Of a stretch of DNA of 64,000 nucleotides, positions 8,112 to 58,790 are shown in pieces (within the stretch, counting starts at the first letter, position 1; every line of letters starts with the position of its first letter). Position numbers and translations under genes: made by a program. Where the stretch lies: the IMG/VR virus record IMGVR_UViG_3300044712_001937, positions 62,001 through 126,000 of that record; one strand, written 5' to 3'. The stretch comes from a virus. Under the pieces are notes generated by a model. It was not told where the DNA came from and did no database searches. It worked only from the letters and a program-made list of their open reading frames with translations.

Positions 8112-9271
8112 AACAATATTTAGATTTATTACAAAACATCATAGATAATGGTGTTGAAAAAGAATCCGGAAGAGCTAACATGGCAAATACTATTGGAATT
8201 TCTAATGGTATAATACGAATGAATTTACAAGATGGATTTCCATTGCTTACTACAAAGAAAATGTATTTAAAAGGCGTTATTCATGAATTATTATGGTTTC
8301 TTCGTGGTGACACTAACATTAAATATCTTGTAGATAATAATGTTAATATCTGGAATGATGATGCATATCGTTGGTATTTAACTTTATTAAATAAAAGGCA
8401 AAAAGAATTAGAAGGTTCATCAATTGAATTGGTTAAATTAACACAAGATGAATTTATAAATTGTGTTAAAAATTTTGATTCTATTTATGAAGATAAAATA
8501 AAATATATGATTTATTCTCATCACCCTGATGAGTTTCAACCTGTATTATCTATGCTATCTCATTTATTCGAATATGAATATCGTTTGGGTGACCTTGGGA
8601 AAGTTTATGGATATCAATGGAGAAATCAAAATGGTGTTGACCAAGTTAAAGAAGTACTTGACAATTTAAAAAATAATCCATATAGTCGTTATCATATTAT
8701 TGATGGTTGGAATAAAGCTGATTTTAATGAAATGGCATTACCTCCTTGTCATTTATTATATCAATTTATAGTTAGACCGTTAAGTTTTAAAGAAAGAAGA
8801 GATTTAGCACATAAATATGCTATTGATAATAATTTATTTCCATTAGCTATTGATGCTTTTGGAAATAAAGGAATTCCTGAATATATGAATACTATTGATG
8901 AAACAGGATGGAATATTCCTAAATTCTATCTTGATTTAAATATGTATCAACGTAGCTGTGATACTGCACTTGGTGTTCCGTTTAATATAGCATCTATGTC
9001 GTTATTACTTATGTTATTTGCTAAAGTAAATAATATGATTCCGGGGGTTTCTACATGGATTGGTGGTGATACTCATTTATATGTAAATCATATTGAAAAT
9101 ATTAAAGAACAAATAAACAGAGAACCATTTAAATTACCAAGTTTGAATATAAATAAAGAAATTAAAAATCTTGAAGATATTCTTAATTTAACTATCAATG
9201 ATTTCGAATTAGTAGGGTATGAATCGCATCCTGCAATTAAATTTGAACTATTTACTGGTTTAAAAAAATAA
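8108..9271 (+). CDS. thyA: Thymidylate synthase
   Basis: 387 residues, longer than the usual ~265. The active-site Cys is in LPPCHLLYQF; the dUMP-binding RSCDTALGVPFNIASM and the C-terminal DTHLYVNHIENIKEQINREP are all present. It makes dTMP from dUMP with methylenetetrahydrofolate. Two additions explain the size: about 60 residues after NDDAYRWYL and about 50 residues between QFIVRP and LDLNMYQRSCD. It works with dUTPase and MazG of the same operon. Confidence 0.95.
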   Translation: MKQYLDLLQNIIDNGVEKESGRANMANTIGISNGIIRMNLQDGFPLLTTKKMYLKGVIHELLWFLRGDTNIKYLVDNNVNIWNDDAYRWYLTLLNKRQKELEGSSIELVKLTQDEFINCVKNFDSIYEDKIKYMIYSHHPDEFQPVLSMLSHLFEYEYRLGDLGKVYGYQWRNQNGVDQVKEVLDNLKNNPYSRYHIIDGWNKADFNEMALPPCHLLYQFIVRPLSFKERRDLAHKYAIDNNLFPLAIDAFGNKGIPEYMNTIDETGWNIPKFYLDLNMYQRSCDTALGVPFNIASMSLLLMLFAKVNNMIPGVSTWIGGDTHLYVNHIENIKEQINREPFKLPSLNINKEIKNLEDILNLTINDFELVGYESHPAIKFELFTGLKK

Positions 9272-41143: not shown

Positions 41144-41174
41144 TTTGTATTTATAAAAAAAATAATTACATTTG
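41144..41174 (+). promoter_or_regulatory. Host-type promoter of tRNA leader 1, with late motif inside
   Basis: TTTG at 41144-41147, exactly 19 bases, then TACATTTG at 41167-41174: a perfect Bacteroidetes promoter. The spacer also contains the late-type GTATTTATA (41147-41155), so early and late control may overlap. Confidence 0.8.
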
Positions 41175-41206
41175 TACCGAATAAGTATAACATAATAAAT
41201 ATTCAA

Positions 41207-41281
41207 ATGAAAAATTTAATACATATCCACCCCCAACCACAACAACATCCACAAATGTTGAATGGGGATAATATGGCTTAA
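41207..41281 (+). CDS. Leader peptide 1 (His/Pro/Gln-rich)
   Basis: 24 codons starting MKNLIHIHPQPQQHPQ: 3 His (CAT, CAC, CAT), 3 Pro (CCC, CCA, CCA) and 4 Gln (CAA) within codons 6-16, followed by MLNGDNMA and TAA. It stands between a consensus promoter and a terminator. The downstream array encodes tRNAs for Pro, His and Gln only. The 3' end of the ORF (TGAATGGG, 41259-41266) is complementary to the 5' arm of the terminator. The peptide itself probably has no function beyond being translated. Confidence 0.75.
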   Translation: MKNLIHIHPQPQQHPQMLNGDNMA

Positions 41282-41349
41282 ATTTTTTAAAAAAGTTTTT
41301 AAGTTTAACATATAAAAACCCATTCAGAGAAATTTGAATGGGTTTTTTA
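41259..41349 (+). promoter_or_regulatory. Attenuator 1: alternative antiterminator/terminator
   Basis: Segment A TGAATGGG (41259-41266, inside the leader ORF) can pair with B CCCATTCA (41319-41326). B, extended to AACCCATTCA (41317-41326), also pairs with C TGAATGGGTT (41335-41344), which is followed by a T run: a 10-bp intrinsic terminator. A:B and B:C exclude each other. A ribosome stalled on the His/Pro/Gln codons leaves A free and favours read-through; a ribosome that reaches the stop covers A and allows termination. Confidence 0.75.
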
Positions 41350-42110: not shown

Positions 42111-42185
42111 CTGGGTGTTCCACAGATGGATATATGGGCGTGCCTTGGAAGCACGTGTTCGTGAGTTCGAATCTCACCACTCAGA
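42111..42185 (+). tRNA. tRNA-Pro(UGG), first copy
   Basis: Acceptor CTGGGTG/CACTCAG with A73; anticodon stem CGTGC/GCACG, loop CTTGGAA; T arm GTGAG-TTCGAAT-CTCAC. C1-G72 and A73 suit proline. No CCA encoded. A37 instead of the usual G37. Confidence 0.85.
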
Positions 42186-42200
42186 CTAAATTGTTTTAAT

Positions 42201-42273
42201 GGTGTTTGAAGCATTAAGGTGATGTGCTTGACTGTGAATCAAGAGAAAACGGGTCAGTACCGTTCTTACACCC
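42201..42273 (+). tRNA. tRNA-His(GUG), first copy
   Basis: Anticodon stem CTTGA/TCAAG with loop CTGTGAA; an extra 5' G faces C73 as in tRNA-His. Two T-T mismatches in the acceptor stem and an atypical T loop (GTCAGTA) make it a divergent copy. Confidence 0.7.
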
Positions 42274-42332
42274 AAATTATCGGTTAATTAACCTATAAAA
42301 TATATTTATAGGCATTTTAAAAGATAAAATTA

Positions 42333-42407
42333 CGGAATGTTGAGGAATTGGTTTCCCTCGCCTACCTTGGACGTAGGAGCATGTCGGTTCGAGTCCGGTC
42401 ATTCCGA
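42333..42407 (+). tRNA. tRNA-Pro(UGG), second copy
   Basis: Acceptor CGGAATG/CATTCCG, A73; anticodon stem CCTAC/GTAGG, loop CTTGGAC; T loop TTCGAGT. Different body from the first copy but the same anticodon. Confidence 0.87.
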
Positions 42408-42416
42408 CTATTAAAT

Positions 42417-42492
42417 CGAGTAATTGGGGAGTTGGTCACCCCGCCACATTTGGGATGTGGAGAACTCGCAGGTTCGAATCCTGCTTACTCGA
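42417..42492 (+). tRNA. tRNA-Pro(UGG), third copy
   Basis: Acceptor CGAGTAA/TTACTCG, A73; D stem GGGG/CCCC; anticodon stem CCACA/TGTGG, loop TTTGGGA (G37 as usual for Pro); T stem GCAGG/CCTGC. The most canonical of the three Pro genes. Confidence 0.88.
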
Positions 42493-42494
42493 CT

Positions 42495-42567
42495 GTATTA
42501 GTGGACTGTTGGTAGTCCGTCAAGATTGTGGCTCTTGCTGACGGGGGTTCGATTCCCCTCTAATACC
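42495..42567 (+). tRNA. tRNA-His(GUG), second copy
   Basis: GTATTAG/CTAATAC acceptor region ending with C73; anticodon stem CAAGA/TCTTG, loop TTGTGGC; T loop TTCGATT. More regular than the first His copy. Confidence 0.82.
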
Positions 42568-42573
42568 CTAAAT

Positions 42574-42657
42574 TGTCCTTTGGTGGAATTGGTTTAAACA
42601 CAACTGTCTTTGAAGCAGTAACCTTCGGGTTTGCAGGTTCGAGTCCTGCAAGGACAA
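42574..42657 (+). tRNA. tRNA with Gln anticodon UUG on a Leu-like class II body
   Basis: Acceptor TGTCCTT/AAGGACA, A73; anticodon stem ACTGT/GCAGT, loop CTTTGAA, so anticodon UUG (Gln, CAA). But the D arm (GGTGGAATTGG...ACAC) and the extra arm AACC-TTCG-GGTT are those of tRNA-Leu, and the 5' end is close to tRNA-Leu(UAG) at 45940. Amino acid identity is uncertain. Confidence 0.65.
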
Positions 42658-42664
42658 CTAAAAT

Positions 42665-42736
42665 TACTCAATAGTGTAATGGCTACCACACAACACTTTG
42701 ACTGTTGTAATTCTGGTTCGAGTCCAGATTGAGTAA
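42665..42736 (+). tRNA. tRNA-Gln(UUG)
   Basis: Acceptor TACTCAA/TTGAGTA, with T1-A72 typical of Gln; anticodon stem CAACA/TGTTG, loop CTTTGAC; T stem TCTGG/CCAGA. Normal short variable loop. Last gene of array 1. Confidence 0.87.
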
Positions 42737-42776
42737 CAATTTAAATAAAATTGCGTATATTACTAAAAAAACAATT

Positions 42777-44085: not shown

Positions 44086-44116
44086 TTTGTTTTTAATTGA
44101 AACTTTTTTACCTTTG
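44086..44116 (+). promoter_or_regulatory. Host-type promoter of tRNA leader 2
   Basis: TTTG at 44086-44089, exactly 19 bases, TACCTTTG at 44109-44116: a perfect consensus match. GTATTTAG, one base off the late motif, lies just downstream at 44121. Confidence 0.85.
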
Positions 44117-44159
44117 TATCGTATTTAGTTTAAAACGCTATAACAATTAAAAAATAGAA

Positions 44160-44252
44160 ATGATGAAAAAAGTACTCGACATATTAGTAGCAGAAACATT
44201 AGTTGCCTTATTATGGGCAGTTGATGAAGATATGCTATGTTCAGTCGGGTAA
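44160..44252 (+). CDS. Leader peptide 2 (Leu/Val/Asp/Glu/Ala-rich)
   Basis: 30 codons, beginning MMKKVLDILVAETLVALL and ending with WAVDEDMLCSVG. It has 6 Leu, 5 Val, 3 Asp, 3 Ala, 2 Glu, 1 Ile and 1 Trp: 21 of 30 residues. These are the amino acids of the tRNAs downstream (Asp, Ile, Leu, Glu, Val, Ala, Trp). The ORF ends inside the 5' antiterminator segment GTTCAGTCGGGT. Confidence 0.75.
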   Translation: MMKKVLDILVAETLVALLWAVDEDMLCSVG

Positions 44253-44318
44253 GTTTTATTACGATATAAAACAAGTTTTTAAAAAAACCCGACTGAACTA
44301 AAATCAGTCGGGTTTTTT
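44239..44318 (+). promoter_or_regulatory. Attenuator 2: alternative antiterminator/terminator
   Basis: A GTTCAGTCGGGT (44239-44250, last codons of the leader) pairs perfectly over 12 bases with B ACCCGACTGAAC (44287-44298). B, as AAACCCGACTGA (44285-44296), pairs over 12 bases with C TCAGTCGGGTTT (44304-44315), followed by T. The two structures exclude each other. The first tRNA starts 33 bases after the terminator. Confidence 0.8.
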
Positions 44319-44350
44319 GTTTTTATGTTCTTTGACATGCTGGAATTTTC

Positions 44351-44421
44351 GAGGTCGTGGTGTAATGGTCTGCATAACACACTGTCACTGTGTCGGTTGG
44401 GGTTCGAGTCCCCCGGTCTCG
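44351..44421 (+). tRNA. tRNA-Asp(GUC), first copy
   Basis: Acceptor GAGGTCG/CGGTCTC, G73; anticodon stem ACACA/TGTGT, loop CTGTCAC; T loop TTCGAGT. First gene of array 2. Confidence 0.85.
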
Positions 44422-44486
44422 GCAATATCCTATCGGAAGGTAGGAGAAACTAAATTATTTAAATCCGGAATAGAATAATTTAGAAA

Positions 44487-44561
44487 GGACGTATAGTTTA
44501 TATGGGTGTGAATGCCACCGAGATGGGGTGGTGGTTGCTGGTTCAAATCCAGTTACGTCTG
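44487..44561 (+). tRNA. tRNA-Ile(GAU)-like with A33
   Basis: Acceptor GGACGTA/TACGTCT (G1-U72), G73; D stem GTTT/GAAT; anticodon stem CCACC/GGTGG with loop GAGATGG, giving GAU but with A instead of U at position 33. T stem GCTGG/CCAGT. Confidence 0.55.
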
Positions 44562-44567
44562 CAAAAT

Positions 44568-44643
44568 ATCACCATAGGGGAGTCTGGTCGTCCCTGCTTG
44601 CCTGTCACGCAAGAGAACACGGGTTCAAATCCCGTTGGTGGTG
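44568..44643 (+). tRNA. tRNA-Asp(GUC), second copy
   Basis: Acceptor ATCACCA/TGGTGGT, G73; anticodon stem CTTGC/GCAAG, loop CTGTCAC; T stem ACGGG/CCCGT, loop TTCAAAT. Confidence 0.83.
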
Positions 44644-44646
44644 CTA

Positions 44647-44783
44647 ATACTTTACTGTCGAATTATATTAAGTTGATATAATTTATGAAGATAAGCGGAT
44701 TGGTGTAATAAACACATCTACCTTAAATAAGTAGAAACCTGTAACATGTGAAAGTTATCATCCGCAACAAGAAAGTAAAGTAT
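44647..44783 (+). repeat. Inverted repeat flanking the tRNA at 44695 (processing stem)
   Basis: ATACTTTACT (44647-44656) and AGTAAAGTAT (44774-44783) are perfectly complementary and enclose one tRNA-like gene, like the stems that flank rRNA and tRNA precursors cut by RNase III. Confidence 0.55.
44695..44766 (+). tRNA. Degenerate tRNA-Leu(UAA)-like
   Basis: Acceptor GCGGAT/ATCCGC, A73; anticodon stem TCTAC/GTAGA around a 9-base loop CTTAAATAA containing UAA; T arm GTAAC/GTTAT with an abnormal loop (no TTCRA). D loop lacks GG. Either a decayed or a strongly modified tRNA. Confidence 0.4.
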
Positions 44784-44790
44784 TTATTAT

Positions 44791-44874
44791 CGTGCATTAT
44801 GCAAGCGGTCAAAGCGGCAAGTCCTTCAAACTTGTATCGAAAGATTTCGAGGGGTTCGAATCCCCCATGCATGA
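44791..44874 (+). tRNA. Class II tRNA-like, anticodon unclear (UUC by position)
   Basis: Acceptor CGTGCAT/ATGCATG, A73; stem CAAGT/ACTTG with loop CCTTCAA, giving UUC (Glu) at positions 34-36 but C33; long extra arm CGAAA/TTTCG; T loop TTCGAAT. Body is of the Leu/Ser/Tyr class, so the identity is uncertain. Confidence 0.45.
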
Positions 44875-44883
44875 CTTTAGTTA

Positions 44884-44925
44884 TTTTCATTCAAAAGTGT
44901 AATACAATGCACTTTTGAATGAAAA
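44884..44925 (+). repeat. Perfect 16-bp inverted repeat
   Basis: TTTTCATTCAAAAGTG and CACTTTTGAATGAAAA with a 10-base loop follow the last tRNA of this group. No T run, so more likely an RNA processing or stability element than a terminator. Confidence 0.55.
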
Positions 44926-45050
44926 CACAATCATTAGTATCATATATGAGACTTTCAACAATAAATGTTGAATATTTCTATAAAATTTTAAGTTATTGTG
45001 GAAAATATACAACAAATTGAATAAAAGTTATTTATTTTCTACAATATATA

Positions 45051-45113
45051 ATGTATGAAATAACCAACATTAGTAAAACGATGAAATTATATTCTAAACT
45101 AATAACCACTTAG
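45051..45113 (+). CDS. Possible 20-codon ORF, near-duplicate of next gene's start
   Basis: MYEITNISKTMKLYSKLITT. Its first codons repeat the start of the ORF at 45142 (MCEITNI). A hairpin of TTGTGGAAAATA with TATTTTCTACAA lies just upstream. It may be a small leader or a remnant; weak evidence. Confidence 0.25.
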   Translation: MYEITNISKTMKLYSKLITT

Positions 45114-45141
45114 CTTATAAGCATATTTTAAAAATTACGTA

Positions 45142-45426
45142 ATGTGTGAAATAACAAACATTATTTATATGGAAAACGAAATTTTAAAAAAAGAAATCCT
45201 TAAACTCCGGGAAGAAAATGAAGACCTTAAAAGTAAATTAATTGATTTAACTTTTGAACAAAATTATAGCATTGAAAAAGAATTAGCTGAAATTGTTCGA
45301 GAATTATATTCTGGTGTTTGTGAAGAATTAAAAAATAAAAAAAGTGAACTTACTAAAAAACAAATTTTAGAAAATATTAGAAATAATCTACAAGAATTTG
45401 CAAAAAACTATAAGTTTAAATTATAA
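45142..45426 (+). CDS. Small coiled-coil protein, unknown
   Basis: 94 residues if started at 45142; an alternative ATG at 45169 (MENEILKKEILKLREENEDLKSKL) begins exactly at the coiled coil and may be the true start. Leucine heptads up to residue ~55, basic tail. It lies between tRNAs of array 2. Function unknown. Confidence 0.5.
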   Translation: MCEITNIIYMENEILKKEILKLREENEDLKSKLIDLTFEQNYSIEKELAEIVRELYSGVCEELKNKKSELTKKQILENIRNNLQEFAKNYKFKL

Positions 45427-45430
45427 AAAT

Positions 45431-45502
45431 GCTCGGTTGGTAAAGTGGCTAATACGTCTGACTTTCTATCAGGAGTCACGGGTTCGATTCCCGTACCGAG
45501 TA
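45431..45502 (+). tRNA. tRNA-Glu(UUC)
   Basis: Acceptor GCTCGGT/ACCGAGT (G1-U72), A73; anticodon stem TCTGA/TCAGG, loop CTTTCTA; T stem ACGGG/CCCGT. It starts 4 bases after the coiled-coil gene. Confidence 0.85.
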
Positions 45503-45576
45503 CAATTAGGTGTCTAAAGCATTAAAGACTTAAATTCGGTAAAAAGTTAAATAATTAAGCCATGCCTAATTAAATC

Positions 45577-45648
45577 AGTCTCTTAGCGTAGCGGAAGCGC
45601 ATCTGCCTTACATGCAGAGGGTCATAGGTTCGAATCCTATAGGGACTA
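45577..45648 (+). tRNA. tRNA-Val(UAC)
   Basis: Acceptor AGTCTCT/AGGGACT, A73; anticodon stem TCTGC/GCAGA, loop CTTACAT; T stem ATAGG/CCTAT. Canonical. Confidence 0.9.
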
Positions 45649-45766
45649 CAAATGTCTATCATAGCTGGGTAAAATCCCTTAAAGGAATACTGGAGTAACG
45701 ATAACCTAAGTGAAGTGGTATTATGCGAGATAGTTATAATGAAAAGTTGGTCACTCAGTAATTATA

Positions 45767-45839
45767 GGGTGAAAATGGTGTAAGTATGGGAGCACATCTG
45801 CATGAAAGCAGCAGGACGAAGTTCGAATCTTTAACACTC
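45767..45839 (+). tRNA. Degenerate tRNA-like, possibly Phe(GAA)
   Basis: D arm GTG...CAC, a short stem CTGC/GCAG around ATGAAA (6 bases, contains GAA), and a T arm GAAG-TTCGAAT-CTTT. The acceptor GGGTG/CACTC has two mismatches. Probably a decayed tRNA. Confidence 0.3.
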
Positions 45840-45846
45840 CACAAAT

Positions 45847-45931
45847 TGGAAAATGGTGTAATGGCTAAACATCCCACTCTTACAAAGTGGAGACGAGAAG
45901 TATAATCCGAGTTCGAATCTCGGTTTTCCAA
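45847..45931 (+). tRNA. tRNA with Val anticodon UAC and a long variable region
   Basis: Acceptor TGGAAAA/TTTTCCA, A73; anticodon stem CCACT/AGTGG, loop CTTACAA; T stem CCGAG/CTCGG. The variable region is about 16 bases, against 4-5 normal for tRNA-Val. Confidence 0.65.
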
Positions 45932-45939
45932 CATAAAAT

Positions 45940-46020
45940 GTCCTCTTGGTGGAACGGTAGACACGATAGTTTTAGAAACTATTGCTGAAAGGTGTGAGAG
46001 TTCAAGTCTCTCAGAGGATA
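45940..46020 (+). tRNA. tRNA-Leu(UAG)
   Basis: Acceptor GTCCTCT/AGAGGAT (G1-U72), A73; class II D arm GGTGGAACGGTAGACAC; anticodon stem ATAGT/ACTAT, loop TTTAGAA; extra arm; T stem GAGAG/CTCTC. Confidence 0.88.
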
Positions 46021-46066
46021 CTAATATTTTATAATAATTAAAATAAACTTAATTCTTGCAAAAACA

Positions 46067-46732
46067 CTATTTATTTTTTATTATGTTAACAATAACGTTT
46101 AAATATTTTTTTGATGTTTGTTCTTTGAAATATTTTTGTTGTGATGTGTCAATAATGCATAATTCAATCCCTTGTTCTAAACAAGCTTGAAATTTTCTAT
46201 TATCATTATTTTGAATTTGTTGAAGTTTATTTTCGCCAAATATTGGTTCATAATGAAATAAACCATTTAACTCAAAAGCAAGTTTAAGTGAAGGAATATA
46301 AATATCTAATTCAGAATTTATTATATCTTTATTATTAAATAATATTTCTAAATCAGGATATAATAATTTTAATTGTCCTTCAAGATAAATTTCAAGTTTA
46401 GACCTACGATTACCTTTTGTTTTATGTGTATTATTATAAATTGCAGCACATGATTGTGAACAAAAATGATTGTTTGATTTTTTTATTTCACTATTAGGTT
46501 TTATAATTTCAATACCACAATTAATACAAGTAAAAATTGTACTATTATTGAAATATAGTGAACGACATTTTTTTGTACAAAAATTACCACGATTATATTT
46601 ATTTTCTTTTATATAATGTTTTATTCTCTTTTTTTGACATTGGAAAATATTATCACAATAGTGACATTTTAAATTCAAAAAATCATTTGATTTAGCTGTA
46701 TTAAATTCTTCTTTGGTAAATAATGGAATCAT
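46067..46732 (-). CDS. Homing endonuclease, VSR-like (EDxHD type), with zinc fingers
   Basis: 221 residues from ATG at 46732, chosen by the late motif 14 bases upstream. N-terminal Cys pairs: CHYCDNIFQC, FCTKKC, CINCG and FCSQSC. The C-terminal SKLEIYLEGQLKLLYPD...SELDIYIPSLKLAFELNGLFHYEP resembles very-short-patch-repair-type nucleases used as homing enzymes (E, D, H and D positions). Inserted within tRNA array 2 on the opposite strand. Confidence 0.72.
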   Translation of the reverse strand: MIPLFTKEEFNTAKSNDFLNLKCHYCDNIFQCQKKRIKHYIKENKYNRGNFCTKKCRSLYFNNSTIFTCINCGIEIIKPNSEIKKSNNHFCSQSCAAIYNNTHKTKGNRRSKLEIYLEGQLKLLYPDLEILFNNKDIINSELDIYIPSLKLAFELNGLFHYEPIFGENKLQQIQNNDNRKFQACLEQGIELCIIDTSQQKYFKEQTSKKYLNVIVNIIKNK

Positions 46733-46746
46733 AAGACTTAATTTAT

Positions 46747-46755
46747 AATAAATAC
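46747..46755 (-). promoter_or_regulatory. Late-type promoter motif
   Basis: GTATTTATT on the minus strand, before the start at 46732. Confidence 0.5.
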
Positions 46756-46820
46756 TATAAATTTTCATTTTCGATATAGTTTTTCGGGACAAAGTAAAAG
46801 AATTAATTAATAATATATAT

Positions 46821-46907
46821 GGCTTTGTGGCGAAATTGGCAGTACGCAACAGACTTAAAATCTGTGGTTCAGTAATGGACGTGTCGGTTCAAGTCCGACC
46901 AGAGCTA
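46821..46907 (+). tRNA. tRNA-Leu(UAA)
   Basis: Acceptor GGCTTTG/CAGAGCT (G1-U72), A73; class II D arm; anticodon stem ACAGA/TCTGT, loop CTTAAAA; extra arm GGTTCAGTAATGGACG; T stem GTCGG/CCGAC. Canonical. Confidence 0.92.
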
Positions 46908-46975
46908 CGCTATTGAGTTTTACACTTTTAGATTTCCGTGAAGTTAGTTAATAACTGAGAAAGAAAAAGTGATAT

Positions 46976-47051
46976 GGGGTATGGGACTGCTAGGGTTGGT
47001 CATCTCGCTTGCACCGAGAAAATCAGGACGATTCGAATTCGTCATGCTCCA
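46976..47051 (+). tRNA. tRNA-Ala(UGC)
   Basis: Acceptor GGGGTAT/ATGCTCC, A73 with G3-U70, the alanine identity pair; anticodon stem TCTCG/CGAGA, loop CTTGCAC; T stem GACGA/TCGTC. Confidence 0.88.
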
Positions 47052-47112
47052 CTGAGACAGACTGTTAGAATTTTATAGAACCTGTTGCTGGGTAGCGTAA
47101 AAATTCGAATAT

Positions 47113-47187
47113 GGTTCTGTAGCCCAATTGGTAGAGGCATCAGATTTAAATTCTGTATAGGTGTGGGTTCGACTCCCACCATCCCTA
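47113..47187 (+). tRNA. tRNA-like with UAA anticodon and mismatched acceptor
   Basis: D arm GCCC-AATTGGTAGA-GGC, stem CAGA/TCTG with loop TTTAAAT, T stem GTGGG/CCCAC are good. The acceptor GGTTCTG/CATCCCT has three mismatches. Possibly a recombinant or decaying gene. Confidence 0.45.
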
Positions 47188-47194
47188 CTAACAT

Positions 47195-47265
47195 ACATCT
47201 GTCGTCTAATGGTAAGATATCGGTTTCCAACTCCGAGGATAAGGTTTCGATTACTTTCAGGTGTG
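47195..47265 (+). tRNA. tRNA-Trp(CCA)
   Basis: Acceptor ACATCTG/CAGGTGT, G73 as in Trp; anticodon stem TCGG/CCGA plus a T-T pair, loop TTCCAAC; T arm AAGGT/ACTTT. Weak but complete. Confidence 0.65.
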
Positions 47266-47283
47266 CTAATTAATTATAAATAT

Positions 47284-47550
47284 ATGAGTAGTGAAGATGG
47301 TAGGTATCATATAACTGATATCAAAACAGGTAGAAAATTTTTAGTTGAACCAATTGGTAATCCCCATGTTAATTGGGGTGATGTAAACCCTGCAACAAAA
47401 AAATTAGAAGGGGATTATGGTGATAAATATCGAGGTTCAATCGATGAAAAAAATTCAATAATTACTGAACAAAATGGATTTAAAAATATTATTGTAGGAG
47501 AAATTGGTGAATCTCCAGTAGATTTGATGAATAAAATTTTAAATTCTTAA
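47284..47550 (+). CDS. Hypothetical protein
   Basis: 88 residues from ATG at 47284, just after the tRNA. MSSEDGRYHITDIKTGRKFLVEPIGNPHVNWGDVNPATKKLEGDYGDKYRGSI: short beta-rich protein of a type frequent in phages. Function unknown. Confidence 0.55.
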   Translation: MSSEDGRYHITDIKTGRKFLVEPIGNPHVNWGDVNPATKKLEGDYGDKYRGSIDEKNSIITEQNGFKNIIVGEIGESPVDLMNKILNS

Positions 47551-47560
47551 ATTGCCGAAT

Positions 47561-47652
47561 ATTACCGGATATTGCCGGAATAAAATAAATTAATACTGAA
47601 TATCAAGTATTTATATTTTTATTTTATTACCGGATATTACCGGAATAAAATA
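47561..47652. repeat. Two 27-base direct repeats
   Basis: A 27-base unit starting ATTACCGGATATT and ending CCGGAATAAAATA occurs at 47561-47587 and 47626-47652 with one difference (G/A). Each holds two CCGG cores. Otherwise the 47551-47727 stretch has no gene. Confidence 0.7.
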
Positions 47653-47727
47653 TTGCTTATTTTGGGTTGACGATAGTAAGTTCCAAACATTTAGGAATGA
47701 TATGAGGGTTCATTCATAAGCGCATCT

Positions 47728-47814
47728 AATACGTCCGTGACCGAGTGGTTAAAGGTGATAGTCTCCAAAACTATTTGCGAAAGCATACGTGGGTTCAAAT
47801 CCTACCGGGCGTGC
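47728..47814 (+). tRNA. Ser-like class II tRNA with anticodon CCA
   Basis: Acceptor ACGTCCG/CGGGCGT, G73 (about 47732 to 47813); D arm TGACCGAGTGGTTAAAGGT is a textbook tRNA-Ser sequence; extra arm TTGCGAAAGCAT; anticodon stem ATAGT/ACTAT with loop CTCCAAA, giving CCA (Trp codon UGG). Body and anticodon disagree. Confidence 0.65.
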
Positions 47815-52784: not shown

Positions 52785-52855
52785 TGCGATATCGTCTAAT
52801 GGTAGGACACCTCTCTCATAAGGAGTGAATTGCAGTTCGATTCTGCATATCGCAA
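52785..52855 (+). tRNA. tRNA with CAU anticodon (Met or Ile2)
   Basis: Acceptor TGCGATA/TATCGCA, A73; D arm GTC...GAC; anticodon stem CCTCT/GGAGT (one mismatch), loop CTCATAA; T stem TGCAG/CTGCA. T1-A72 rules out a standard initiator pairing; Met or lysidine-modified Ile cannot be told apart. Confidence 0.75.
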
Positions 52856-57501: not shown

Positions 57502-57533
57502 TTTGGAAGTCTCGTATTTATATCATATATTTG
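57502..57533 (+). promoter_or_regulatory. Host-type promoter of tRNA leader 3, with late motif inside
   Basis: TTTG at 57502-57505, 20 bases, TATATTTG at 57526-57533. The late-type GTATTTATA (57514-57522) lies in the spacer, as in leader 1. Confidence 0.75.
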
Positions 57534-57546
57534 CAGAGTGAATTTA

Positions 57547-57606
57547 ATGAATTCTGTATTTGACTGTTTTGAATGGCGAGGGTCATTAAATTTAATAACA
57601 AAATAA
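57547..57606 (+). CDS. Possible first leader ORF of attenuator 3
   Basis: 19 codons beginning MNSVFDCFEWRG. Its start lies in AATTTAATGA (57541-57550), which pairs perfectly with TCATTAAATT within the ORF. May pre-set ribosome load on leader 3, or be chance. Confidence 0.3.
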   Translation: MNSVFDCFEWRGSLNLITK

Positions 57607-57619
57607 ACAATATAAAGAA

Positions 57620-57709
57620 ATGAGAACATTTGGTACATATTATTACGGTAAAAAATCCTATAAACACCTTATAGGATTCGGGAATTCTATGTCCAAAATG
57701 CAAAGATAA
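57620..57709 (+). CDS. Leader peptide 3 (Tyr/Lys-rich)
   Basis: 29 codons beginning MRTFGTYYYGKKSYKHL. It holds 4 Tyr (codons 7, 8, 9 and 14) and 4 Lys (11, 12, 15 and 26). The array that follows encodes two tRNA-Tyr and three tRNA-Lys. The ORF contains segment A of the attenuator. It sits between a consensus promoter and a terminator 15 bases before the first tRNA. Confidence 0.72.
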   Translation: MRTFGTYYYGKKSYKHLIGFGNSMSKMQR

Positions 57710-57766
57710 CAGCAATGATTTTTGCGTAATGAACTGAAACCCGAATTCGAAAGATTCGGGTTTTTT
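57674..57766 (+). promoter_or_regulatory. Attenuator 3: alternative antiterminator/terminator
   Basis: A GGATTCGGG (57674-57682, in the leader ORF) pairs with B CCCGAATTC (57740-57748) with one G-U. B as AACCCGAAT (57738-57746) pairs with C ATTCGGGTT (57754-57762), followed by a T run: the terminator. Same arrangement as leaders 1 and 2 with different sequence. Confidence 0.7.
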
Positions 57767-57780
57767 GTTTTTATATAAAT

Positions 57781-57863
57781 TGTGTAGATGGTAAATTGGC
57801 TAAATCAGAGGCTTGTAACACCTTCGTCATTCGACTATGTAGGTTCGATTCCTACCTGCACAA
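57781..57863 (+). tRNA. tRNA-Tyr(GUA), first copy
   Basis: Acceptor TGTGTAG/CTGCACA, A73; class II extra arm TTCGTCATTCGA; anticodon region GAGGC-TTGTAAC-ACCTT with one C-A mismatch; T stem GTAGG/CCTAC. Confidence 0.75.
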
Positions 57864-57870
57864 CAAATTT

Positions 57871-57943
57871 GACTTCGTGGCGCAATTGGTAGCGCAATAG
57901 GCTTTTAACCTATGGGTTGGGGATTCGACTTCCCCCGGAGTCA
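57871..57943 (+). tRNA. tRNA-Lys(UUU), first copy
   Basis: Acceptor GACTTCG/CGGAGTC, A73; D stem GCGC/GCGC; anticodon stem ATAGG/CCTAT, loop CTTTTAA; T stem GGGGA/TCCCC. Canonical. Confidence 0.93.
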
Positions 57944-58003
57944 CGGTAGGAAGACTGTTATAATTTCATAGTTCCAAGTAATGGAAAGCATAGAAATTAA
58001 ATT

Positions 58004-58087
58004 GGGAGTGCGCTAACGCTGGAGAGTTAGGTTTGTCTGTAAAACAAATGTCTTTCGGCTGAGTGGGTTCGAATCCCACTACTCCCA
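58004..58087 (+). tRNA. tRNA-Tyr(GUA), second copy
   Basis: Acceptor GGGAGTG/TACTCCC, A73; D stem CTAA/TTAG; anticodon stem TTTGT/ACAAA, loop CTGTAAA; extra arm TGTCTTTCGGCTGA; T stem GTGGG/CCCAC. Canonical. Confidence 0.93.
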
Positions 58088-58130
58088 CAAATTTAATATT
58101 AAAATAGGTGTATTATACCTATGTTTAATA

Positions 58131-58139
58131 GTATTTATA
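58131..58139 (+). promoter_or_regulatory. Late-type promoter motif
   Basis: GTATTTATA 14 bases before ATG 58154; it decides this start against an ATG at 58121 that lies upstream of the motif. Confidence 0.55.
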
Positions 58140-58153
58140 TTAAATTTAATATT

Positions 58154-58549
58154 ATGTTTGAAAATTGTAAAAATTCAAAAAAACAAGGTGATTTAGGATT
58201 AGGAAAAGCAATTGGATGGTTAACAGAATGTGGTTATACTGTTTCTATACCATTAACTGATTCACAAGATTATGATTTGATTGTTGATATGGATAATAAA
58301 TTAAATAAAGTTCAAGTTAAAACAACCAGATATAAAAATAAAAATGGAATTTTTTGTGTTAATTTATCAGTTAAAGGAGGCAATCAAAGTAGTAATACAA
58401 TAAAAAAATTTGATGCTAATTTTACTGATTATGTTTATGTTTATACATCGAATAATGAAATGTATTTTATTCCGTCATGTGAAATAAAAACAAAAAATAA
58501 TTTAAATATTGGTAAATTATTTTCAAAATATAAAATAATGACTTCGTAA
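58154..58549 (+). CDS. PD-(D/E)xK homing-type endonuclease
   Basis: 131 residues from ATG 58154. GDLGLGKAIGWLTECGYTVSIPLTDSQDYDLIVDMDNKLNKVQVKTTRYK: Glu replaced early by Gly-Lys region, then YDLIVD (Asp) and VQVKT (Q-x-K), the core of the PD-(D/E)xK family that includes tRNA-intron homing enzymes such as I-Ssp6803I. The last codons overlap the first 10 bases of tRNA-Lys(CUU), so the gene looks inserted against a tRNA. Confidence 0.72.
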   Translation: MFENCKNSKKQGDLGLGKAIGWLTECGYTVSIPLTDSQDYDLIVDMDNKLNKVQVKTTRYKNKNGIFCVNLSVKGGNQSSNTIKKFDANFTDYVYVYTSNNEMYFIPSCEIKTKNNLNIGKLFSKYKIMTS

Positions 58550-58612
58550 CTTAATTGGTAGAGTACCACTCTCTTAAAGTGGGAGTTGTGGGTTCAAATC
58601 CCACCGAAGTCA
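58540..58612 (+). tRNA. tRNA-Lys(CUU)
   Basis: Acceptor GACTTCG/CGAAGTC, A73; anticodon stem CCACT/AGTGG, loop CTCTTAA; T stem GTGGG/CCCAC. The 5' end is shared with the coding end of the nuclease gene. Confidence 0.92.
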
Positions 58613-58696
58613 CTAACTGAACTTAGCAAATGGAGTTCTGTCAACCATCAAGCATGATTAAATCGTAGGAGGGGGAGAGTTTAAAATTTGCAATAT

Positions 58697-58783
58697 GACC
58701 TTGTAGCTCAACTGGATAGAGCTTCTGGCTTTTAACCAGAAGGGAGCGTAATGCCGTTGTGGGTTCGAGTCCCACCGGGGTCA
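58697..58783 (+). tRNA. tRNA-Lys(UUU), second copy, long variable region
   Basis: Acceptor GACCTTG/CGGGGTC, A73; anticodon stem TCTGG/CCAGA, loop CTTTTAA; T stem GTGGG/CCCAC. The variable region is about 17 bases (AAGGGAGCGTAATGCCGTT part), unusual for Lys. Confidence 0.78.
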
Positions 58784-58790
58784 CAAAATT

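Follow-up and report, generated by a model that had tools for sequence, protein, structure and literature searches.

Positions 44086-44318 of the DNA analysed here, a window of 64,000 nucleotides corresponding to bases 62001-126000 of the 364,702-bp IMG/VR virus record IMGVR_UViG_3300044712_001937, raise the question why a short open reading frame (ORF) in front of a tRNA array should end in a segment that takes part in one of two mutually exclusive RNA pairings. The record, that of a jumbo phage, encodes head, portal, terminase and endolysin genes and holds four tRNA arrays, and an attenuator-like leader was found ahead of all four. The region in question, leader 2, is very probably one of four ribosome-mediated transcription attenuators, each of which would control a tRNA operon and sense the aminoacyl-tRNAs that this operon supplies. 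This interpretation is built on the parts that can be recognized in the sequence, on the match between leader codons and arrays, and on the conservation of that match.

All elements of leader 2 lie on the plus strand. Direct reading revealed a promoter motif (44086-44116, TTTG-N19-TACCTTTG) and, downstream of it, the ORF MMKKVLDILVAETLVALLWAVDEDMLCSVG (44160-44252), whose regulatory codons are those for Leu, Val, Ala, Asp, Glu and Trp. Segment A (GTTCAGTCGGGT, 44239-44250), the putative 5' half of an antiterminator, covers the final codons of the ORF and is the exact 12-bp Watson-Crick complement of 44287-44298 (ACCCGACTGAAC), as stated in a preliminary description of the locus. The latter sequence belongs to segment B (44282-44298), which is common to the antiterminator and to a terminator formed by pairing of 44282-44296 with segment C (44304-44318). 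This second helix had also been described as a perfect 12-bp pairing; it is perfect, but its length had to be corrected to 15 pairs, followed by a T tract. The intrinsic terminator was predicted from complementarity and folding, and was also picked up by a consensus scan. The suggestion that such double complementarity is improbable by chance was borne out: with B held fixed, the upstream leader was dinucleotide-shuffled 20,000 times and yielded a perfect complement of at least 12 bp in 4 cases, and chance complementarity was rejected on these grounds. For A:B a folding energy of -22.8 kcal/mol was calculated (z = -5.7); the terminator gave -21.0 (z = -8.4), and the ORF part including A gave -30.2 (z = -4.8). 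In the fold of the ORF part a segment near the start of the ORF (TACTCGAC, 44173-44180), the protector, pairs with 44244-44251 (GTCGGGTA) and would sequester A. The predicted structure of the full leader consists of protector plus terminator (z = -7.2), and the total folding of leader 2 exceeded that of codon-shuffled controls (z = -5.2). Leader 2 thus has the appearance of a complete three-helix attenuator behind a promoter motif of the Bacteroidota type.

To find comparable loci, both strands of the 364,702-bp record were scanned for terminators that have a complementary segment upstream and the end of a short ORF close by; codons and tRNAs were not used. Four loci were obtained from 65 terminator-like sites, and all four are directly upstream of tRNA arrays. 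It could be argued that the terminators end upstream transcripts or insulate the arrays, that the ORFs and A segments are incidental, and that tRNA expression depends on separate promoters of the tRNA genes or on general read-through; in favour of this view, terminators of this kind are frequent in these phages, and many weak sites were returned by a consensus promoter scan. However, an A segment and an ORF accompany only the 4 of 65 sites that precede tRNA arrays, and the Bacteroidota-type promoter pattern TTTG-N18-21-TAnnTTTG, which has 34 occurrences on the two strands of the record, is present directly upstream of all four leaders, so that the terminator would lie inside a short leader transcript. 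As incidental terminators would also leave the correspondence between codons and arrays unexplained, we consider this explanation highly improbable.

Leaders 1-4 are MKNLIHIHPQPQQHPQMLNGDNMA, MMKKVLDILVAETLVALLWAVDEDMLCSVG, MRTFGTYYYGKKSYKHLIGFGNSMSKMQR and MKTTVSSRTISISTSISRNGNSIFCSNFGGRSRNDIGLLFS, and the arrays behind them supply Pro/His/Gln, Asp/Glu/Val/Leu/Ala/Trp, Tyr/Lys and Cys/Asn/Ile/Ser/Phe/Gly/Thr/Arg, respectively; the fourth leader and its array are located outside the window. Nineteen amino acids are thus split among the four arrays and leaders without overlap, and the only one omitted is Met (a tRNA-Met gene is found at 52785, far downstream of array 2). This division of 19 amino acids over four operons and the protector helix sequestering A go beyond the preliminary description. 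Expected numbers of cognate codons were derived from the amino-acid usage of the phage itself. Of the core codons, 10 of 14 were cognate in leader 1 (1.0 expected, P = 4e-9), 19 of 23 in leader 2 (7.1 expected, P = 5e-7), 7 of 15 in leader 3 (2.2 expected, P = 3e-3) and 30 of 32 in leader 4 (14.5 expected, P = 7e-9). The product of the four P values is about 1e-25, and the matrix of matches between leaders and arrays was diagonal. A short ORF whose codons correspond to what the operon supplies, as expected of this class of attenuator, is therefore present. The statement that leader 2 contains the only Trp codon among the leaders was confirmed (TGG is exclusive to it), as was the presence of tRNA-Trp in its array, where the two genes (47195 and 47731) are found and in no other array.

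Relatives were collected with the capsid as query, which yielded 80 related contigs, and with leader DNA patterns, which yielded more; tRNA regions were retrieved for 16 related records. Matching arrays were found behind 65 distinct leader peptides, drawn from 35 sets (records or loci). Among 41 leaders of 14 phage records cognate codons were in excess by 0.37 on average; when the arrays were permuted among the leaders 20,000 times, this mean excess reached 0.14 at most. The leaders form four classes, which are homologous families whose members are not independent; the independent evidence consists of the four classes and of the cases with rearranged arrays. In one relative (G013) array 4 is split: Thr/Arg/Arg/Ile tRNAs follow the leader MKNIITITQITRIRGTKTSSNGFIV (starting with MKNIITITQITRIRG), and a Phe/Ile/Ser/Gly/Asn/Leu/Cys array follows a leader starting with MKFLNLNNNPSNLNSNFISGNIFLGTC. 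The Leu tRNAs reading CUN have been relocated to the latter array, whose leader has gained CTA, CTG and CTT codons; the array-2 operon of this phage has Leu tRNAs reading UUR only, and its leader has only TTA and TTG as Leu codons. The same restriction, to UUR-reading Leu tRNAs in the array and to TTA/TTG as Leu codons in the leader, was seen in G020. In G012 the CUN-reading Leu tRNAs have moved to array 4, which has a leader with CTA and CTC. Array 2 of G012 and of G020 includes tRNA-Met, and the leaders of both contain internal Met codons. A divergent phage (69% capsid identity), encountered by chance, has an Asp/Phe/Gly array after the leader MKQITTYFGGNGDGTTDAITIMARLC (starting with MKQITTYFGGNGDGTTD). 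The features noted in the preliminary description, a codon-biased ORF ahead of a tRNA array with two pairings at its end that exclude each other, are those of an attenuator, and this reading gains support from the agreement of codons with arrays in all four leaders of the phage and in its relatives, including those with rearranged arrays.

The conservation of the reading frame within classes argues for translation of the leader ORFs, and it would equally be expected if the products were functional micropeptides, whose amino-acid composition matched the arrays for reasons of peptide function and not of codon sensing; the recurrence of the short blocks LLDIL, SRNG and KKSYK in leader peptides could be taken in the same sense. 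Several of the conserved blocks, however, overlap the pairing segments, and the peptides conserve composition, not order: in class 2 both residues of a substituted aligned pair belonged to the cognate set in a fraction of 0.53, compared with 0.10 expected. Moreover, leader residues follow the content of the arrays through rearrangements, and Leu codons track Leu anticodons, a relationship that is invisible at the peptide level. A micropeptide function as the source of the match is thus very improbable.

The pairing potential of the RNA was also retained across relatives. A:B complementarity was found with differing sequences (GAATGGGG/CCCCATTC, GTCGGGT/ACCCGAC, GAATCGGG/CCCGATTC, TGCTTGGG/CCCAAGCA and GGGTCTTC/GAAGACCC), and in all four groups the ORF part was more stable than codon-shuffled versions (mean z between -1.1 and -2.2). 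The predicted protector helix of leader 2 recurs in most class-2 leaders, with arms that are largely invariant within the class, and class 3 has a protector hairpin; statistically the protector is uneven over the classes. Sequestration of A averaged 0.78 in class 2, compared with 0.55 for codon shuffles, and 0.51 in class 3, compared with 0.32. Many class-2 leaders of relatives (for example L102 near 3185, L113, L135, L168, L169 and L176) contain (A)CCTCCTTTCTT or ACTCCTTTCTT between the stop codon and the terminator. This motif, which is absent from leader 2 of the window, resembles the anti-Shine-Dalgarno end of 16S rRNA.

For these parts we infer a mode of action in which the promoter motif is active and the leader ORF is translated, with the outcome set by where the ribosome stalls. 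RNA polymerase would start at the promoter and be followed by a ribosome translating the short leader ORF. With plentiful cognate charged tRNAs the ribosome would reach the end of the ORF and occupy A, leaving B free to pair with C, and transcription would terminate before the tRNA genes. If any of the Asp, Glu, Val, Leu, Ala or Trp tRNAs were short, the ribosome would stall upstream of A, A would pair with B, C would stay single-stranded and the array would be transcribed. In an untranslated leader the protector segment at 44173-44180 would pair with A and the terminator would form, so that the default state would be off. The leader would act as an OR gate whose inputs are the amino acids of its array. 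Since each leader combines up to eight amino acids and therefore responds to many signals, and since the protector makes the output depend on the leader being translated at all, it is conceivable that the attenuators respond to a general slowing of translation (through coupling to RNA polymerase, energy state or initiation rate) and not to the supply of cognate tRNAs. Codons that divide the amino acids among the leaders exactly as the arrays do would be superfluous in a general sensor, and we regard this variant as quite improbable.

Several observations weigh against attenuation by cognate tRNA supply, or at least against parts of the mechanism outlined above. Taken by itself, the codon match of leader 3 is modest (P = 3e-3), and in G012 the array-2 leader has one CTA codon although the Leu tRNAs detected in the array read UUR only. 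Pairing of A in leader 2 does not exceed that in codon shuffles, 36 of 100 of which reach the same value; the protector clearly beats such shuffles only in many class-2 leaders, and weakly in classes 1, 3 and 4. The A, B and C cores of class 2 are nearly invariant, so that support from covariation comes from the comparisons between classes and with divergent phages. In classes 1 and 3 the stop codon is 13-27 nt beyond A, and a terminating ribosome would cover A partly or not at all; because of this distance, the protector of these classes would have to re-form behind the ribosome. Finally, there are few codons per amino acid (a single one for Trp), unlike the runs in classical leaders. Because of this low number the leaders probably answer to severe shortage, such as that caused by tRNA cleavage, and not to mild starvation.

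The closest structural counterparts are the ribosome-mediated attenuators of amino-acid biosynthetic operons of the trp/his/leu/thr type (theory in PMC1183508, survey in PMC2965389). Like these, the phage leaders have a mutually exclusive protector, antiterminator and terminator, and an intrinsic terminator before the first gene; exclusive helices sharing a segment, an upstream promoter and the terminator are all recognizable as sequence motifs. In contrast to the classical subtype, in which genes of biosynthesis or charging are located downstream, the leaders are followed by tRNAs and small ORFs. They would thus control tRNAs instead of enzymes, a single leader combines between two and eight amino acids, 19 amino acids are divided over the four leaders of one phage genome, and the promoters are of the Bacteroidota type. 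Judged by the features that can be tested in sequence, the system would work like a trp/his-type attenuator, and what appears to be new are the tRNA genes and the multi-amino-acid leaders. Aminoacyl-tRNA synthetase operons are controlled by attenuators of the pheST type, in which genes of the translation machinery are likewise attenuated through cognate codons; they differ in responding to a single amino acid and in controlling a protein-coding operon.

Genes are regulated by the charge state of the cognate tRNA also in T-box leaders, which bind tRNA directly and have no leader ORF, and a T-box-like element sensing uncharged tRNA without translation would be an alternative to attenuation by a translating ribosome. 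The many different in-frame codons of each leader ORF suit a ribosome and not a single specifier loop, and no T-box was matched at the Rfam gathering score anywhere in the window. The Rfam amino-acid leader families (Trp, His, Leu, Thr and others) likewise gave no match at the gathering score; only tRNA and tmRNA were matched in the window. We consider a T-box-like element extremely improbable. A literature search that covered few subscription journals and almost no preprints found no description, for phages or any other organism, of tRNA operons attenuated through a leader peptide.

The reason for, and the timing of, phage tRNA expression have been debated for decades. If the proposed attenuators operate as described, one group of jumbo phages offers an answer based on regulation, namely that tRNAs are made on demand when a cognate codon is slow. 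Compensation for codon usage and replacement of cleaved tRNAs would become distinguishable by which stress opens which leader, and tRNA operons would join enzyme operons as targets of ribosome-mediated attenuation, under a code that is legible in the sequence. A likely purpose would be replacement of tRNAs lost to tRNA-cleaving defences of the host or to host shut-off. A wider proposal, which we judge about evenly balanced, is that the four attenuators jointly keep track of the charged tRNAs of 19 amino acids, each opening its operon only when tRNAs of that operon are missing, as a sense-and-replace counter to tRNA-cleaving defences or tRNA loss. Closest in function are the phage tRNA arrays that counter tRNA-targeting defences (PMC10264068, PMC11555353). 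As in those systems, the phage has tRNAs for many amino acids, and a gene for an Rnl1-type RNA ligase is present in the same region; the two studies concern tRNA resistance or replacement, and a search through the text of PMC10264068 turned up nothing on attenuation, leaders or promoters.

The ligase gene (PF09511, 55559-56608) is located between array 2 and leader 3. An Rnl1-type ligase was present in six of eight relatives tested; the two that lack it, G007 and G008, are phages with a reduced set of tRNAs or a decayed Tyr/Lys leader. Outside the window, a long ORF contains the head domain of a CCA-adding enzyme/poly(A) polymerase (G000:C1:342623-343009), and the phage may thus mature its own tRNAs. 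The RNA ligase and the CCA-adding-enzyme domain fit a phage that defends its tRNA pool. A tRNA with the anticodon CTA, which reads TAG, is also encoded outside the window (G000:C1:148036-148110) and in G004, G005, G006 and G013; it is a possible amber suppressor.

The system has so far been seen only in a single clade, which is known from metagenomes alone. No cognate leader was found in the less related jumbo phages LR756511 and LR756508, which have many tRNAs, nor in Flavobacterium phage immuto (three tRNAs) and Microcystis phage Mel-JY01 (one tRNA). The occurrence of such tRNA-bearing phages without a cognate leader led us to reject an artefact of scanning near tRNAs. In about 1.03 Mb of DNA around distant capsids the scan returned a single unrelated site; in about 1.4 Mb from capsid neighbourhoods it returned two tRNA-free sites and one new cognate leader. 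Looser settings gave three unrelated sites across regions of relatives and of the comparison phages. No near relative was found among sequenced isolates; the best capsid match in the phage collection was 34% identical. Because a contig with a 68% identical capsid sits in a Bacteroidales bin, and because of the promoter type, a Bacteroidota host is suggested.

The two other leaders in the window are also on the plus strand. Leader 1 (41144-41347) comprises a promoter motif (41144-41174), the ORF MKNLIHIHPQPQQHPQMLNGDNMA (41207-41281) and segments A (41258-41266), B (41314-41328) and C (41333-41347), and is followed by array 1 (tRNA-Pro/His/Gln, 42111-42737). An additional tRNA of this array, at 42202, was detected by Rfam only and is, by our reading of the anticodon, of the His type. 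Leader 3 (57502-57764) comprises a promoter motif (57502-57533), the ORF MRTFGTYYYGKKSYKHLIGFGNSMSKMQR (57620-57709), the protector hairpin (57654-57678) and segments A (57674-57682), B (57736-57747) and C (57753-57764); array 3 (tRNA-Tyr/Lys) extends from 57781 to 58784. In G008 the Lys tRNAs have apparently been lost, and the class-3 leader (L111, upstream of 15972) has no ORF but retains a promoter-like motif and a terminator; only tRNA-Tyr is left of the array. We read this leader as a decaying attenuator.

Array 2 itself (44350-47814, plus strand) contains genes for tRNA-Asp (two), Glu (two), Val (two), Leu (two), Ala and Trp (two) and two tRNA-like genes detected by Rfam only, interspersed with small ORFs, one of them on the minus strand. 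The Asp, Glu, Val and Trp tRNAs are each present in two divergent copies that share an anticodon, which may protect the phage against tRNA nucleases that recognize a particular sequence. The tRNA-like gene at 44487-44561, which was matched by Rfam and missed by ARAGORN, has an odd anticodon loop and is possibly a decayed or atypical tRNA. Two further leaders of a divergent phage, MKNINLHNLPQLPSNKHWGGKLM and MKNWLNISIHSNSRNIIRPGRG, were seen at positions 8510 and 9930 of L179 (G016), and several tRNAs of the arrays behind them were likewise detected by Rfam only.
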